A stretch of DNA of 37,897 bases. Origin: Acidimicrobiia bacterium (lineage in GTDB: Bacteria > Actinomycetota > Acidimicrobiia > Acidimicrobiales > AC-14). The notes under the pieces are model-generated. The model did not search any database, was not told the DNA's origin, and worked only from the letters and a program-made list of their open reading frames with translations. Numbering within the stretch: the first letter of the stretch is position 1; each line of letters starts with the position of its first letter. Shown here one piece after another: positions 30,967 to 37,897 of this stretch. Location of the stretch: positions 1 to 37,897 of the forward strand of contig JAHFUP010000051.1 in assembly GCA_023265025.1 (NCBI GenBank), given 5' to 3'. A program made the position numbers and the translations under genes.

Positions 30967-31941
30967 CTAGAGGACGGACACGTCGGCGACGAGCGGGCGA
31001 TGGTCGCTGCCGGTCCCCGCGCCGGCATGTATGCGGGTGACCACGAGACCTCGGGTCGTGAGGATGTGGTCGATCCTGAGCAGCGGTGGCACGACAGGGA
31101 GGTCGCGTGGCCAGGTCATCTGGTACGGCTTCCCGCAGGCGGCCGCGGCGTCGGTCAGCCCGATCGAGAGCAGCGACCGGAAATGCCTGTGTCCCCATGT
31201 GGCGTTGAAATCGCCGGCGACGAGGACAGGGCGGTCCTCGGCGGCGACCGCCGACCGCAGCACCTCGAGGTCTTCGATCCACGCGACCCGCGCCCCGCCG
31301 GTCGGGGCGACGGTGTGAACCGCGAAAAGGCGCACGGCGCGACCTTCGACCTCGACCGTCGCACGGATCAGGATCGGTCGCCCGTGGGAGGCCACGATGT
31401 CGTCCTCGGTGACCGGCCACCGGGACGCCACCACGGCTGCGAAAGGGTCGTCACGGGGAACAGTGATCCGGAACGGCAGGTCGGCCGTGGCGCCGGTCGC
31501 GTCCAGGTCGGCCACGAACGTGGGGGTCGCCTCCTGGAGAATGAGCACGTCCGGCCGGTGACGGCGAATCTCGGCGGCGAAGGCCACCGTGTCGCGATTC
31601 GGGGCATAGACGTTGGCGTCGAGCACCCGGAAGTGCGGAGCCGACCGGGCCGCGGCAGGGATGGCCTCGCCGGCCCGGACCTCAGGCAGGGCAAGGCCGA
31701 TGTGAGCCACGACGACCACCGCGCTGGCAGCCACGAGCGCCCACCGACGGAGGGCGCCGGCCAGGACTGCGACCGGCCACGCCGGCAAGAAGAGCACCGG
31801 GGTCAGGGCGTTCAGCTCGACGAGGGAAGTCCTCGCGTCCCACGCCACGAGTCGGGCGAGGGCCACCACCGCCAGCGGGATCACGATGACCCACCCCGCG
31901 AGGACGAGCACGCCGGCCGCGAGGCGCTTGGCGCCGGTCAC
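30967..31941 (-). CDS. Membrane-anchored endonuclease/exonuclease/phosphatase-family protein
   Basis: A 324-residue protein. Three hydrophobic segments (about 7-30, 44-62, 66-84) precede an extracytoplasmic EEP domain (about 100-324) with the metal and catalytic motifs in order: QEA (Glu), HTV, GDFNAT, RIDHILT and GSDHRP. Members hydrolyse phosphodiester bonds in nucleic acids, inositol lipids or sphingomyelin. Its location outside the membrane favours a lipid or extracellular DNA substrate. GTG 31941 starts 12 bases after the Cys-rich gene's stop, so it is probably the last gene of that operon, though its link to the redox proteins is unclear. Confidence 0.82.
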   Translation of the reverse strand: MTGAKRLAAGVLVLAGWVIVIPLAVVALARLVAWDARTSLVELNALTPVLFLPAWPVAVLAGALRRWALVAASAVVVVAHIGLALPEVRAGEAIPAAARSAPHFRVLDANVYAPNRDTVAFAAEIRRHRPDVLILQEATPTFVADLDATGATADLPFRITVPRDDPFAAVVASRWPVTEDDIVASHGRPILIRATVEVEGRAVRLFAVHTVAPTGGARVAWIEDLEVLRSAVAAEDRPVLVAGDFNATWGHRHFRSLLSIGLTDAAAACGKPYQMTWPRDLPVVPPLLRIDHILTTRGLVVTRIHAGAGTGSDHRPLVADVSVL

Positions 31942-31953
31942 CCCGTGATCAGG

Positions 31954-32634
31954 TCAACGACCGGGGGGTCTGAGGCTGCGTCCGAGGGACTGGAGCAGCC
32001 CGCTCACGAGCTCTCCCACCTGGGTCAGGAGGTTCGGTGCCGGCGGAGGGACGGCGGCCGGTGGTGGGACGGGCGGAGGGCATCCAGGGGCGAGGCACGG
32101 GGCAGAGTGCTGCGCGGTGGCGTTGTCGGTGAGCACGTCGCCCGAGCACGTCTCGTCGAACGTCCACGGCGGGTTGCAGCTGATCACCCGGCAGACGATG
32201 GGTCCGTAGCAGGCGATCTCCTGGTGGCACTGGCCGTAGCGGAACACGTTGCAACAGACCTTGCGCTCATCGCAGGTCCCGCTGGCGCACCGGCACGTGC
32301 ATTCCGCGCCGCACAGCTGGTTGCAGTCGATGTAGTAGCGCGCCGCGTTCCCGCAGCAGAGGCCCGAGGTGTCGGCCTTCCACCACCCGCCGGCGAACGA
32401 GCCGGGCGGGCAACGGTTCTGGCCCGCGACGGTGCAGCACATGGCGGTGTACCCACCGCCGCACGAGGAATCCGGCCCGCAGACCGCGGCATAGGCCGTG
32501 ACGGGCTGAAGCACGTAGCGCAACGGCGTCACCGTCAACGCCGACCCCACCACCGCCATGCGCACGAGGAAGCTCCGCCGGCTCGACTTCGCGCCGAGGA
32601 ACGTCGCCGCCGCGTCGGCCATCTCCTTGTTCAC
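31954..32634 (-). CDS. Tat-exported Cys-rich protein resembling methylamine dehydrogenase light chain
   Basis: A 226-residue protein. A twin-arginine signal (SRRSFLVRM, residues 18-26; hydrophobic core to about 49) is followed by a domain with about 22 cysteines between residues 52 and 185, then a Pro-rich stretch and an amphipathic end. The order of Cys-rich turns, CPPGS at 75-79, Trp84-Trp85 just after it, a paired CC and a later Trp157 resembles the light chain (MauA), where two Trp are cross-linked into tryptophan tryptophylquinone. Whether such a cofactor forms is unknown; no heavy chain is nearby. GTG 32634 overlaps the upstream stop (GTGA). The MauD-like protein upstream suits disulfide formation in this product. 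Confidence 0.7.
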   Translation of the reverse strand: MNKEMADAAATFLGAKSSRRSFLVRMAVVGSALTVTPLRYVLQPVTAYAAVCGPDSSCGGGYTAMCCTVAGQNRCPPGSFAGGWWKADTSGLCCGNAARYYIDCNQLCGAECTCRCASGTCDERKVCCNVFRYGQCHQEIACYGPIVCRVISCNPPWTFDETCSGDVLTDNATAQHSAPCLAPGCPPPVPPPAAVPPPAPNLLTQVGELVSGLLQSLGRSLRPPGR

Positions 32635-33134
32635 ATCGCCTCGAGCCACTCGGGAGGTAGTGCGGCCGAGATGCTGATCGCCGAGAGCACCGCGTTCACC
32701 CTCGGGACCACACGGCCACGGTCCGCCATGCTGCCCAGGACGACGTACAGGCAGAAGGCCCGGCCCTCCTCGACGAAGAACCGCTGCACTCCACCTTGGC
32801 CCCGGAGCGTGCGTTGGAGCTGCCGGCCGCTGAACTCGTCGGTGCGCAGTTCCCGTGGCATGCCGCCCGAGGCGAACAGCGCGGTGCCGGCGCTCCCGGA
32901 GCCGTACTCCACCAATGCAATGAACGCGTGGTGGGAGCGCATGGTCTCGACGGCGCCGCTGCCGAAGTCGCCCCGCTCGTCGGGGAGCGGGAAGTCGGCG
33001 GCGTGGAGCATCGCGTGGGAGCGGAACTTCGGGGTGTCGGCGCATCCCGCCTCGACAGGAAGCGGCTGCCGGCGGATGCGCCCTTCCCAGCCCGTGGGGA
33101 GATCCACGGCCAGACCGTGGGCGGAAATCCTCAT
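32631..33134 (-). CDS. Conserved-looking 167-residue protein of the MauA-like cluster
   Basis: I do not recognise a named domain. The protein begins with a short beta-rich part (ISAHGLAVDLPTGWEGRIRR), has no signal or membrane segment, and is a mixed alpha/beta chain with FFVEEGRAFCLYVVLGSM near residue 118-136. It lies 13 bases after the MauD-like gene and its stop overlaps the start of the Cys-rich gene, so all three are translated together. A chaperone or maturation partner for the exported Cys-rich protein is a reasonable guess from position only. Confidence 0.65.
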   Translation of the reverse strand: MRISAHGLAVDLPTGWEGRIRRQPLPVEAGCADTPKFRSHAMLHAADFPLPDERGDFGSGAVETMRSHHAFIALVEYGSGSAGTALFASGGMPRELRTDEFSGRQLQRTLRGQGGVQRFFVEEGRAFCLYVVLGSMADRGRVVPRVNAVLSAISISAALPPEWLEAM

Positions 33135-33147
33135 GATCGGACCGCGG

Positions 33148-33894
33148 TCACGCGTTGTCGCCGGTCAGTGGCGGCGTCGTGGGATACAGGCTCGGGTCAC
33201 CGGGCAGGATCCCCGCCGCGGTGAGCTCCTGGTCGATGTGATCTCCCCGGCCCCCGTCGCGCGGTCGGCCGGCGCCGTTGCGTAGCCTCCGCCGGTCGCC
33301 GGCGGCGCGGGCCACCAGGCCCACGACCTGATCCCACGCCGCCGCAGTTCCTTCCCCGGCCACCCGACCGGTGGTGCCGTCGACGTGGACGAAGTACGGA
33401 GAGCCGGGCACCTGGTAGTCCGACCAGGCCTCGGTGGACATGAGCACCGTCTGCCCGCCGGTGGCCAGGACGCGGACAGCGGACTCACTTTCGTCCCCGG
33501 GCCCCTTGGTGACCGCCACCACCCGCATCCCCGCCGGCAGGCCGAGGTCCCCGCCGTCCCCCAGCGCCTCCCAGAAGCCGTTGCACGTCAGACATCCACT
33601 CGACAGGAAGGCCAGCAGCGTCTCGTGTGGCGCCCCGAGCACGGCGATTGCGGCGGACTCGCCGTCCGGGGTGAACCCGGAGATGTCGTGCGCCTTCGCT
33701 CCGGTGGAGCCCCCGACGGCGAGGTCGACCGGAACGGGCTGAGGTGCCTCCTCGGTCCTTCCGGCGCCGAGCTCGTGAAGTTGGCGCAGGATCTCGGCGT
33801 GGCTCTTCAGGAGCCCCACGACGAGCAGACCGAGGAGGACCGTGGCCGTGGCTTGGATCCCGTCGAGGGCCGTCACGTCGATCGGCCCACACAA
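33148..33894 (-). CDS. MauD-like membrane-anchored thioredoxin-fold protein
   Basis: A 248-residue protein: one N-terminal transmembrane helix (about 12-29), a linker, and an outward-facing thioredoxin-like domain (about 65-215) with the redox pair Cys101-Leu-Thr-Cys104 in FLSSGCLTCNGFW and a cis-Pro-containing VPGSPYFVHVD. This resembles MauD, needed for disulfides in the methylamine dehydrogenase light chain. With a 22-cysteine exported protein in the same operon, an oxidase or isomerase role is likely. GTG 33894 is taken; GTG 33876 would also keep the helix. No ribosome-binding site is obvious. Divergent from the lipoprotein gene. Confidence 0.75.
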   Translation of the reverse strand: MCGPIDVTALDGIQATATVLLGLLVVGLLKSHAEILRQLHELGAGRTEEAPQPVPVDLAVGGSTGAKAHDISGFTPDGESAAIAVLGAPHETLLAFLSSGCLTCNGFWEALGDGGDLGLPAGMRVVAVTKGPGDESESAVRVLATGGQTVLMSTEAWSDYQVPGSPYFVHVDGTTGRVAGEGTAAAWDQVVGLVARAAGDRRRLRNGAGRPRDGGRGDHIDQELTAAGILPGDPSLYPTTPPLTGDNA

Positions 33895-34924: not shown

Positions 34925-34997
34925 TGGGCCGTAAGGGATTTGAACCCCTGACCCCCTGCGCGTCATGCAGGTGCTCTGCCAACTGAGCTAACGGCCC
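34925..34997 (-). tRNA. tRNA-Val (anticodon GAC)
   Basis: A minus-strand cloverleaf: acceptor GGGCCGT/ACGGCCC, D-arm GCTC...GAGC, anticodon stem CCTGC/GCAGG around ATGACGC (anticodon GAC, reads GTC), normal T-arm AGGGG TTCAAAT CCCTT. The discriminator is A and CCA is not encoded. The putA frame runs into its first 10 bases and stops at the tRNA's TAG, the same arrangement as the tRNA-Val at 1704. Confidence 0.95.
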
Positions 34998-37897
34998 TCG
35001 GCGAGCAGACTACCCGACTCCACAGGGGCGAAGCCCTGACGCAGCGTGTTCTCGCTCACGGTGCGGGGCTCGACGAACTGGAGGAGGTAGTCGGGGCCGC
35101 CGGCCTTCGACCCCACACCGGACAGGCCGTAGCCGCCGAAGGGCTGGCGACCGACCACGGCGCCGGTGATCGTGCGGTTGACGTAGACGTTGCCCGCCCG
35201 CAGCTCGGCGGCGGCCACGCGGATGTGGGCCGGCGACCTCGACACCACGCCGGCGGTGAGCGCGAACTCGGTGTCGTTGGCCAGGGCCAGGGCCTCGTCG
35301 AAGGAGCCGGCCCGGAAGACGCTCAGGACGGGGCCGAAGATCTCCTCCCGGGCCAGGCGTCCACCCGGCCGGACCTCCGAGACAACGGTCGGGCCGACGA
35401 AGTAGCCCTCTTCCGGGATTTCGTCCATGGCCAGCACCACATCGCCCTCGGCGGGCGCCAGCTCGACGTACGAGCGGACCCGGACGTGGGCCTCGGCGTC
35501 GATCAGCGGGCCGACGTCGACCGCCATGGCCCGGGGGTGGCCGACCTTGAGCAGGCGGGTGGCGCCGACCAGGCGGTCGACCAGCTCGTCGTAGACGTCG
35601 TCGAGGACGATCAGGCGGGAGCAGGCCGAGCACTTCTGGCCGGCGTACCCGAAGGCGGAGCCGACGGCGATGGGCACGGCCTGGTCGAGGTCGGCGTCGG
35701 CGTCGACGATCAGGGGGTTCTTGCCGCCCAGCTCGGCGATGACCCGCTTGACGTGGCGCTGGCCGGGACGCACCTCCGCCGCCGCCCGCACGATCCCCAG
35801 CCCGACCGGCTTGGAGCCGGTGAAGGCGACGAAGGATACGTCGGGGTGCTCGACCAGGTAGGCGCCGACCTCCTCGCCGAGGCCGGGCAGGAACCCGAGA
35901 ACACCGTCGGGCAGGCCGGCCGCCAACAGCGCCTCGACCAGCTTCGAGGCGATCGCCGGCGTCTGCTCCGCCGGCTTGAACAGCACCGCGTTACCCGTCA
36001 CCAGCGCGGCGACCACCATGCCGGTGGGGATGGCCAGCGGGAAGTTCCACGGCGAGATCACCACGCCGATCCCCCGCGCCTGATAGGTCAGGCGGTTGTG
36101 CTCGCCCGGCGGCGACTGGACCGGACCGCCCTCCTCCAGGCGGATCGCCTCCCGCCCGTAGTACTCGCAGAAGTCGACGGCCTCGCAGACGTCGGCGTCC
36201 GCGTCGCGCCACGGCTTGCCGGCCTCGAAGACCTCCAGCGCGGCCAGCTCGTTGCGACGCCGGCGCATCCAGTCGCCGGCGCCGAACAGGACTGCGGCCC
36301 GCCGGCGGGCCGGCAGCCGGCGCCACGCCGGCCACGCTCGCCGGGCTGCGTCGAGCGCCTCCTCCGCCTCGTCCGGGCCGCACCGGGCCGAGCGGGCGAC
36401 GACGGTTGACGGGCATGCGGGGTCGTTGGACTCGATCTCGCCGGCGGTGGTGACCGCCCGGCCGCCGATCCTGGCCGGCACGGCGAGCCGGAGGCGCCCT
36501 TCGCCCAGTCCGGCGACGGCCGCGCCCATGGCCGCCCGCACCGTCGCCCGCCGCCACTCCCCGATCGGCTCGGGCTCGTATGCCGCGGGCGCCGCCTGAT
36601 CGGTCGGCGGCCGGTGGACGGCCGGCTCGCGCTCGGGGATCTCCTCGACCGCCGGCGGCGCCAGCAGGGCGTCGAGGTCCTCGCCCTCGACGAACCGCCG
36701 GCGCACGAAGCTCTCGTTCGCGGTGTTCTCCAGCAGCCGGCGGACGAGGTAGGCCATGCCCGGCACCAGCTCCCCCACCGGCGCGTAGACCCGCAGCCGA
36801 AGGCCCATCTTGCGCACCGCGGCGTGCAGCTGCTCCGCCATCCCGTAGAGCAGCTGGATCTCGTAGCCGTTGTCGGGGATGCCGACCGACCGGGCGTACT
36901 CGACGGCGTAGGCCAGGGAGCGGAGGTTGTGGGTGCCGAAGGCAGCCCGCACGGTGCCGTGGCTGTCGTGGAGCAGGCGGGTGCAGCGCTCGTAGTTGGC
37001 GTCGGTCTCGACCTTCTCGGAGAACACCGGCACCGGCCACCCCTCGGCCTGCGAGTGGACCGTCTCGGTGTCCCAGTACGCCCCCTTGACCAGGCGCACG
37101 GTGATCGGCCGAGCCCGGCCGCCGGCCCAGGCGATCAGGTCGGCCAGGTCGTCGCGGGCGTCCTTCAGGTAGGCCTGGATGACGATGCCGGCGTCGAGCC
37201 CGGCCAGCTCGGGGTCGTCGAGCACGTCCCGGAAGAGCTGCAACGTGAGGTCCTTGACGTCGTAGTGCTCGGCGTCGAAGTGGACGTAGGCCCCGGCGGC
37301 CGCCGCCTCCCGCAGCAGCGGACGGAGGCGCGCCCTGGCGCCGGCGACGCCGTCGGCCCGGGTCAGCGGGGCGTACCGGGTGGCCAGGGCGGTCGACTTG
37401 ATGCTGACGTTCACCCGGGCCAGCGGTCCGAGGTCGTCGGACTCGAGGATGGGGCTGGCCGGCCAGCGGGGGGCGGCGGTGGTCAGGGTCCGCAAGAGCT
37501 CGCGGACGCGCGCCGCGTACCGGTCGGCGTCGGCCTCGGTCAGTGTCTTCTCGCCCAGAAGGTCGACGGTGGACGCGCTGCCGCCGGCCCACAGCTTCCG
37601 GAGCCCCGGGACGGCTTCGGCCGGCGTCTGGCCGACGATGAACTGCTCGGCCACACGGGAGATGCTCCGGCGGGCGAGGCCGGCCGCCGCCGCCTTTCCG
37701 AGGGGGAGGTGCTCCGCGGCATCTAAACCCAGATCGAGAATCCGGGGGACGTCCGTGCCGCCGTGCAGGTACTCGTCGAGGTGGCGGACGACGTCCTCGT
37801 CGCCCGTCGTGGCGGGGAACACGTCAACGAAGCGGAACAGCTGGGTCTTGAACGACGGGTGCGACATCGCCCACTCGAGCATCCGCTCGCTCCACCA
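34988..37897 (-). CDS. putA: Bifunctional proline dehydrogenase / P5C dehydrogenase, 5' end beyond the window
   Basis: An open frame of 969 codons reaching the window's right edge, so the N-terminus is missing; codons before ATG 37882 (WWSER) continue the family's N-terminal pattern. The N-terminal FAD-binding proline dehydrogenase barrel is followed by its flavin-site end (YLVRRLLENTANESF). A linker leads to an aldehyde dehydrogenase domain with ELGGKNPLIVD, AGQKCSACSRL (catalytic Cys) and a C-terminal FGGYGLSG. It oxidises proline to glutamate through P5C, feeding the glutamate pool that gltB also serves. There is no DNA-binding domain in what is seen. Its TAG stop is bases 8-10 of the adjacent tRNA-Val(GAC). 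Confidence 0.95.
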   Translation of the reverse strand, partial: WWSERMLEWAMSHPSFKTQLFRFVDVFPATTGDEDVVRHLDEYLHGGTDVPRILDLGLDAAEHLPLGKAAAAGLARRSISRVAEQFIVGQTPAEAVPGLRKLWAGGSASTVDLLGEKTLTEADADRYAARVRELLRTLTTAAPRWPASPILESDDLGPLARVNVSIKSTALATRYAPLTRADGVAGARARLRPLLREAAAAGAYVHFDAEHYDVKDLTLQLFRDVLDDPELAGLDAGIVIQAYLKDARDDLADLIAWAGGRARPITVRLVKGAYWDTETVHSQAEGWPVPVFSEKVETDANYERCTRLLHDSHGTVRAAFGTHNLRSLAYAVEYARSVGIPDNGYEIQLLYGMAEQLHAAVRKMGLRLRVYAPVGELVPGMAYLVRRLLENTANESFVRRRFVEGEDLDALLAPPAVEEIPEREPAVHRPPTDQAAPAAYEPEPIGEWRRATVRAAMGAAVAGLGEGRLRLAVPARIGGRAVTTAGEIESNDPACPSTVVARSARCGPDEAEEALDAARRAWPAWRRLPARRRAAVLFGAGDWMRRRRNELAALEVFEAGKPWRDADADVCEAVDFCEYYGREAIRLEEGGPVQSPPGEHNRLTYQARGIGVVISPWNFPLAIPTGMVVAALVTGNAVLFKPAEQTPAIASKLVEALLAAGLPDGVLGFLPGLGEEVGAYLVEHPDVSFVAFTGSKPVGLGIVRAAAEVRPGQRHVKRVIAELGGKNPLIVDADADLDQAVPIAVGSAFGYAGQKCSACSRLIVLDDVYDELVDRLVGATRLLKVGHPRAMAVDVGPLIDAEAHVRVRSYVELAPAEGDVVLAMDEIPEEGYFVGPTVVSEVRPGGRLAREEIFGPVLSVFRAGSFDEALALANDTEFALTAGVVSRSPAHIRVAAAELRAGNVYVNRTITGAVVGRQPFGGYGLSGVGSKAGGPDYLLQFVEPRTVSENTLRQGFAPVESGSLLAEGR

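Follow-up and report, generated by a model that had tools for sequence, protein, structure and literature searches.

What do a cysteine-rich protein with a signal of twin-arginine translocation (Tat) type and a MauD-like thioredoxin-type protein do side by side in an actinobacterial genome? The two are encoded in a 37,897-nt stretch of DNA (the window), positions 1 to 37,897 of the forward strand of contig JAHFUP010000051.1, from assembly GCA_023265025.1 of an Acidimicrobiia bacterium. They are called A and D here, and the 167-amino acid (aa) protein encoded between them is called P. An earlier note on this DNA, made from the letters alone, had described a minimal cluster in which A might be a new quinoprotein resembling MauA, the light chain of methylamine dehydrogenase (MADH), or a disulfide-rich exported factor. 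Comparison with relatives suggests another picture. The window holds what looks like a reduced copy of a conserved five-gene cassette, almost only actinobacterial in this sample, whose two further members are a MauE protein (E) and a DsbD_2-type membrane protein (X) that is very probably a selenoprotein. X, in the complete cassette outside the window, is the strongest new point of this work. The cassette as a whole is probably a dedicated disulfide-maturation system (MauE, the MauD-like D, and X) for surface proteins of MauA-like fold.

Public genomes were scanned for relatives of A; of the 246 found, the best 80 were kept, a sample that leans to close relatives; two genomes give two loci each and contig ends cut many loci. 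Cassette members were sought by iterated profile searches across the 80 loci, with D found in 69, P in 72, E in 66, and X in 57. The commonest gene orders are EDXPA (25 loci), EADXP (11), and EDPA (10). When only the 36 loci with enough flank are counted (at least 4.5 kb before and at least 5.5 kb after A), the numbers are D 34, P 34, E 33, and X 28. The gene-neighbour survey that the earlier note had proposed thus bears out the MauD-like neighbour, and D, P, and A form one operon, a conserved module beyond chance. The genome of the window (185 contigs, 98.4% complete) holds a second A on another contig, and this second locus (L109, contig C24) is complete, with E, A, D, X, and P. The window, like its near relative L029, has only D, P, and A; profile searches of the window gave neither E nor X. 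The label "minimal cluster" is therefore misleading, as the window copy is an incomplete version of a five-gene cassette; the absence of MauE noted earlier is correct for the window, but the complete second locus of this genome encodes the protein. A is present in 21 of the 60 genomes searched around this one, itself included. The relatives belong to Acidimicrobiia, Nitriliruptoria, relatives of Egibacter and Euzebya, Frankiales, Nakamurella, and others; the record titles of the best 80 of 246 are all actinobacterial except one labelled Melainabacteria.

The case for X as a selenoprotein begins with a single codon. In the 55 loci with a readable SPxG motif (the partial X of L062 and L071 were left out), the variable codon of SP-?-G-x-S-M is TGA in 43 and TGC or TGT in 12. 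Neither TAA nor TAG occurs there, and both the WSP upstream and the G-x-S-M downstream are conserved. This UGA/Cys site is the only conserved Cys column of X, with no other Cys column at 30% or above (n = 55). In the window's genome the in-frame UGA lies at 5549-5551 of L109. With the TGA read as selenocysteine (Sec, U), this X scores 27.3 bits against DsbD_2 (PF13386), over the cut-off of 24.9, and 28.2 bits when scored with one TGA inside. Directly after the UGA, the UGA-type genes carry a hairpin, GAUGCU-NNNN-AGCAUC, whose inner five pairs are kept in 41 of 43 UGA genes vs 1 of 12 Cys genes. Synonymous resampling, which ignores relatedness among the genomes, gave a mean of 14.6 and a maximum of 26 of 43 in 2000 trials, and the Ser codon in the stem is AGC in 43/43 compared with a 32% background in other cassette genes. 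The hairpin is SECIS-like (selenocysteine insertion sequence) in place and size, and may be a putative binding site of SelB.

The form of X also follows the genome that carries it. Of the 44 UGA-type genomes, that of the window included, 40 have a tRNA-Sec scoring 59 bits or more, vs 2 of 23 others (Fisher p = 2e-11, a value that is too small since related genomes are not independent). These 23 have either a Cys-type X or an EDPA set in which X was not seen; L073 was left out of the count as the second locus of a genome already counted. The 59-bit threshold was chosen after the gap in scores was seen; at the Rfam cut-off of 47 bits, with matches read by eye, the figures are 42/44 vs 7/23. The window's genome has the machinery for Sec insertion, with SelA adjoining SelB, and with SelD and a tRNA-Sec. 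Whether X has Sec or Cys goes largely with the Sec machinery of its genome. Because UGA stands where 12 relatives have Cys, a hairpin is conserved behind it, and the UGA form tracks tRNA-Sec, X is very probably a selenoprotein of DsbD_2 type, as judged from sequence comparison. No NCBIfam model matches X, and none of the titles among the literature matches listed concerns a DsbD_2/SPUG selenoprotein or the cassette. The available parts of the table in a 2026 inventory of 119 prokaryotic selenoprotein families likewise lack a SPUG DsbD_2 protein (PMC13188914).

Two side observations concern Sec use in these genomes. The SelD match in the window's genome (contig C19:11996-12910) has one in-frame TGA, so that SelD may itself be a selenoprotein. 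L068, the locus labelled Candidatus Melainabacteria, has a UGA-type cassette together with tRNA-Sec, which may reflect transfer or a mislabelled or mixed bin.

The genes of the window and the residues discussed below are as follows.

33148-33894, minus strand: D, MauD-like membrane-anchored thioredoxin-type protein with CLTC and an N-terminal hydrophobic stretch
33583-33594, minus strand: CLTC active-site motif of D, read from the sequence
32631-33134, minus strand: P, 167 aa, no signal seen, Mog1/PsbP-like fold predicted by AlphaFold2
31954-32634, minus strand: A, Cys-rich Tat-type exported protein of 226 aa from the GTG at 32634, with 22 Cys and CPPGS, probably of MauA-like fold
32488-32634, minus strand: Tat-type signal region of A (SRRSFLV...AYA), about residues 1-49
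32170-32499, minus strand: predicted MauA-like core of A, protein residues 46-155 (model residues 1-110)
32380-32385, minus strand: Trp84-Trp85 (GWW) of A, invariant (80/80)
32326-32328, minus strand: Asp103 of A (DC motif), invariant (80/80)
32230-32232, minus strand: Gln135 of A, placed by Cys spacing where MADH has Trp108 (Gln 76, Asn 4 of 80)
32164-32166, minus strand: Trp157 of A (NPPW), past the matched core (Trp 72, Tyr 8 of 80)
31954-32088, minus strand: C-terminal tail of A, short and Pro-rich, 44 aa plus stop
30967-31941, minus strand: EEP protein (PF03372, by Pfam match), a neighbour outside the cassette (0/80 loci)

All four open reading frames reported earlier are present, with CLTC, the 22 Cys, CPPGS, Trp84/85, and Trp157 as described. 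The statement that starts overlap stops holds for the P/A junction (GTGA at 32631-32634); elsewhere there are gaps, of 13 nt between D and P and of 12 nt between A and the EEP gene. A, P, and D of the window match no Pfam family (0 matched). The EEP gene was rejected as a cassette partner (0/80 loci, phmmer with the window EEP protein, E 0.01), as was a PNPOx gene (0/80). Beyond the cassette families, the largest clusters of conserved neighbours reach only 11 loci (ATP-binding cassette ATPases; short-chain dehydrogenase/reductase enzymes) under crude gene calling, besides one mixed cluster of 26 loci that consists partly of antisense frames. An ordinary PutA-type fused proline dehydrogenase/aldehyde dehydrogenase lies near the cassette at 34988-37882.

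Is A related to MauA? The twin arginine of A (SRRSFLV) is invariant in 14/14, although the score against TIGR01409 (15.6 bits) is slightly under the cut-off of 16.7, and the A domains hold 16-28 Cys. The suggestion of a disulfide-rich exported factor is supported as far as a Cys-rich Tat-type protein goes, with export and disulfides predicted from sequence. PF02975, the family that the earlier note had proposed for comparison, matched neither the window A nor figured among the families matched by the 80 domain members (the alignment comprises the window and 79 loci; L087 was left out as near-identical to L082); it had 0 matches in the window's genome, though the family's control also matched nowhere. 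A phmmer search of A against the PDB gave an unrelated best hit (E 0.61), and a profile of A found none at E 10. With hhalign, A and MauA were aligned at a probability of 1.3 over CPPG alone; in pairwise shuffles the mean z was 1.1, with 6 of 80 proteins above 3, the highest at 5.1 and the window protein at 1.7. Sequence alone gives no proof of descent of A and MauA from one ancestor.

Structure prediction says somewhat more. The AlphaFold2 model of A (residues 46-182) has a mean predicted local distance difference test score (pLDDT) of 88.6 and a predicted template modelling score of 0.85; over the five models the mean pLDDT falls from 88.6 to 72.6. Foldseek returned no significant match for this model (best E 5). 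A second look with VIA-align at 66 Foldseek-ranked chains gave 26 with Z of at least 2, and all 21 entries listed are structures of MADH or aromatic amine dehydrogenase (AADH), matched at chains of light-chain length (105-126 residues). The matches have Z 2.5-3.3 over 70-86 residues at a root-mean-square deviation of 3.0-4.5, in a range (Z below 8) where, by the notes of VIA-align, a match may mean merely a common arrangement. Landmarks follow in the same order in A and MauA: CPPG, Trp, Asp-Cys, CxC, and two Cys 12 apart (C109/C121 in MauA numbering, C91/C103 in the A model). By motif alignment, Asp103 of A stands where MADH has Asp76-Cys77. The proposed check by family and structure thus gave a split answer, without a PF02975 match but with a weak, specific structural match to MADH/AADH. 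A likely has a MauA-like fold, as modelled, and shared descent with MauA is plausible.

Among the partners of A, the four E proteins tested all score over the Pfam MauE (PF07291) cut-off of 27, at 44.1-60.2 bits, and the Cys-x-Cys pair of E is kept in 62/62 aligned proteins; the window's genome has a single MauE match, inside the complete A cassette. The CxxC of D is kept in 66/66 aligned relatives. Against MauD (TIGR02661) the window D has a weak partial match (E 0.013, 14.9 bits), and in the second-copy D of the same genome the model covers residues 66-196 (1.2e-4). The claim of a MauD-like partner stands, with a thioredoxin-type D (CLTC) as described, and complete copies add a Pfam MauE partner. 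In a few loci a MauE-type gene and a short D-like fragment lie together, separate from the main D-P-A set: L097:11636-12246, L102:5425-6104, and L103:11594-12222, and likewise on the minus strand of L062 and L064. The predicted structure of P (AlphaFold2, pLDDT 91.6) matches PsbP, LpqN, MTC28, Mog1, Tse3-Tsi3 complexes, and the Eag chaperones EagT6 and SciW; with Foldseek the best E was 0.0075 (MucB), with none at 0.001.

Where might A go? Most of its relatives have long C-terminal parts, with a median of 326 aa (75 uncut cases); in four relatives the tail is 2-3 residues long. We scanned 69 tails: those of the window and L109 and of 67 of the 80 loci, leaving out six short ones (L029, L049, L056, L059, L090, and L092), four cut ones (L046, L053, L066, and L096), L075, which contains N, and the near-duplicates L081 and L087. 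LGFP repeats occur in 44 of them, two ricin-type lectin families in 4 each, the cell-wall-binding CWB2 in 3, and FG-GAP in 3. Such tails point to a probable display of A on the cell surface. One tail matched GDP-mannose dehydratase.

The disulfide-rich light chain of MADH requires MauD and MauE, and proteins of DsbD type carry electrons through the membrane to partners resembling thioredoxin. Taking these roles together with the anatomy of the cassette, and building on the computational observations (the cassette, the E and X families, the UGA/Cys exchange, the hairpin, and the Sec machinery), we infer topology, direction of electron flow, role of P, and surface role as follows. P, a small protein of predicted Mog1/PsbP fold with no signal, would hold A in the cytosol, and the twin-arginine signal would then send A across the membrane. 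Outside, MauE (Cys-x-Cys) would oxidise D (CxxC), and D would put disulfides into A. X, via its single SPUG selenocysteine, might exchange electrons with either D or E, allowing wrong disulfides to be corrected. Mature A would be a compact, disulfide-locked MauA-like domain with its invariant Trp-Trp pair, displayed on the surface and often anchored by the C-terminal LGFP, lectin, or cell-wall-binding part. For the window copy, E and X may be supplied by the genome's complete second locus.

Several observations weigh against this scheme. The MauA fold match reaches only Z 2.5-3.3 and is unseen by sequence methods; D stays far below the MauD equivalog cut-off of 188.6 bits (14.9 for the window, 21.6 for the second copy); and the matches of P do not exceed Z 6.2 and span several different functions. 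DsbD is known for a pair of membrane cysteines, whereas X has one conserved Cys/Sec, so that the electron path through X is a guess; the Cys-type X of L031 has no Pfam match. At the 59-bit threshold, 4 UGA-type genomes show no tRNA-Sec, and one genome with a Cys-type X and one without X do show it. The available DNA of 11 EDPA loci, some of which are cut by contig ends, yielded no X, and the window copy, without E and X, indicates that neither is strictly needed beside A. L073 and L099 have A without any partner, but the genome of L073 carries the full set elsewhere (L059), its lone A being an orphan client. A rival reading is that the cassette is not specific to A, with E, D, and X as a general extracellular disulfide system of which A is one client, or with A as a thiol buffer or metal-binding surface protein. 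The occurrence of more than one A in some genomes (that of the window; L059 and L073 in one genome), A alone in 2 of 36 loci, and the window copy, which lacks E and X, fit this rival. However, D and P are tightly linked to A (34 of 36 loci), and the single MauE match of the window's genome lies inside an A cassette. We regard this rival as unlikely, though with a real chance of being right. Far less credible is that the UGA of X is a regulatory stop or the mark of a pseudogene, with the downstream part translated from the ATG of GESM alone. There is indeed a Met codon four codons past the UGA, Sec insertion is supported by computation only, and the UGA-type loci seen all come, by their titles, from assemblies of uncultured organisms. 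Yet a regulatory stop or a decaying gene does not sit well with a codon that is always TGA in 43 genomes with both flanks conserved, a Cys form that occurs mostly in genomes lacking tRNA-Sec, a hairpin constrained at synonymous sites, and the complete Sec machinery of the window's own genome; we consider it highly improbable.

The remaining rival is the one raised by the earlier note, that A is a true new quinoprotein in which Trp84/85 would be oxidised or cross-linked into an extracellular redox cofactor resembling tryptophan tryptophylquinone (TTQ), with E and D maturing it. The TTQ of MADH is formed from two Trp, Trp57 and Trp108. GWW and Asp103 are indeed invariant (80/80), the predicted fold is MADH/AADH-like, and the partners are MauE and MauD-like. 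At the place of Trp108, however, Cys spacing puts Gln in 76 and Asn in 4 of 80 sequences, and for the other possible Cys register the residues listed are Ala, Pro, Ser, Gly, Arg, Asp, Thr, and His, with no Trp among them. Apart from GWW no Trp column is fully conserved: Trp157, which the note had paired with Trp84/85, has Tyr instead in 8/80 and comes after the matched core. The MADH heavy chain (PF06433) was matched in 0 of 25 genomes searched, though that family's control also matched nowhere, and apart from the one mixed cluster no further neighbour family exceeds 11 loci (by crude clustering; MauG was not searched for). TTQ in A is unlikely because there is no Trp at the Trp108 place and Trp157 is variable and past the core; together with the missing PF02975 match, this leaves the quinoprotein improbable. 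A bolder extension of the disulfide-maturation reading is a new Sec-dependent actinobacterial system, in which MauE, MauD, and the DsbD-type selenoprotein build a disulfide-locked surface domain of MauA fold whose invariant Trp-Trp pair has a new redox function, as a non-TTQ cofactor or an electron relay. We give this extended reading only a slim chance; if it were true, MADH would be a specialised branch within a broader family of surface proteins matured by MauE and MauD.

The preferred reading, a disulfide-maturation cassette for A, suggests that maturation of the MauD/MauE type is not bound to methylamine oxidation or TTQ, and that the MauA-like fold may have been reused as a surface domain. 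For the partners the link to the Mau system is real, and for the fold it is probable. Candidate selenoproteins would gain a membrane protein of DsbD type, whose gene would be cut short by annotation that stops at the UGA. The Cys-type and X-less relatives offer natural comparisons, among them the named strains Nakamurella silvestris and N. endophytica (Cys-type X) and the locus without X of Aquihabitans sp. G128.

How does the cassette compare with known systems? P resembles the Mog1/PsbP superfamily, including EagT6 and SciW, in predicted fold, and the Eag proteins serve in the cytosol as chaperones for exported proteins; but the best Z of P is only 6.2, with low sequence identity and no Pfam match. 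Known prokaryotic selenoproteins such as the rhodanese/DsbD fusion-like TsoB share with X a redox character, Sec replacing Cys and, in some, membrane parts; TsoB (NF045694), in the table parts available, is a rhodanese fusion with two Sec (UxxxxU), whereas X has one SPUG Sec (PMC13188914). Among DsbD/CcdA-type transporters (PF13386), X is alike in scoring over the family cut-off and in an SPC-type motif in the first hydrophobic stretch, and differs by its single conserved Cys/Sec, by Sec in 43/55, and by its mau-like operon setting. The closest parallel is the MauA/MauD/MauE system, in which an exported, disulfide-rich small protein likewise stands beside a CxxC MauD-like protein and MauE, and A adds a weak but specific fold match to MauA with CPPG, Trp, and Asp-Cys in matching order. 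A differs from the MADH light chain in having no PF02975 match, no second TTQ Trp, more Cys, and mostly cell-wall or lectin tails, and the cassette, with no heavy chain found in the 25 genomes searched, differs from the MADH system by two extra members, the candidate selenoprotein X and the protein P.

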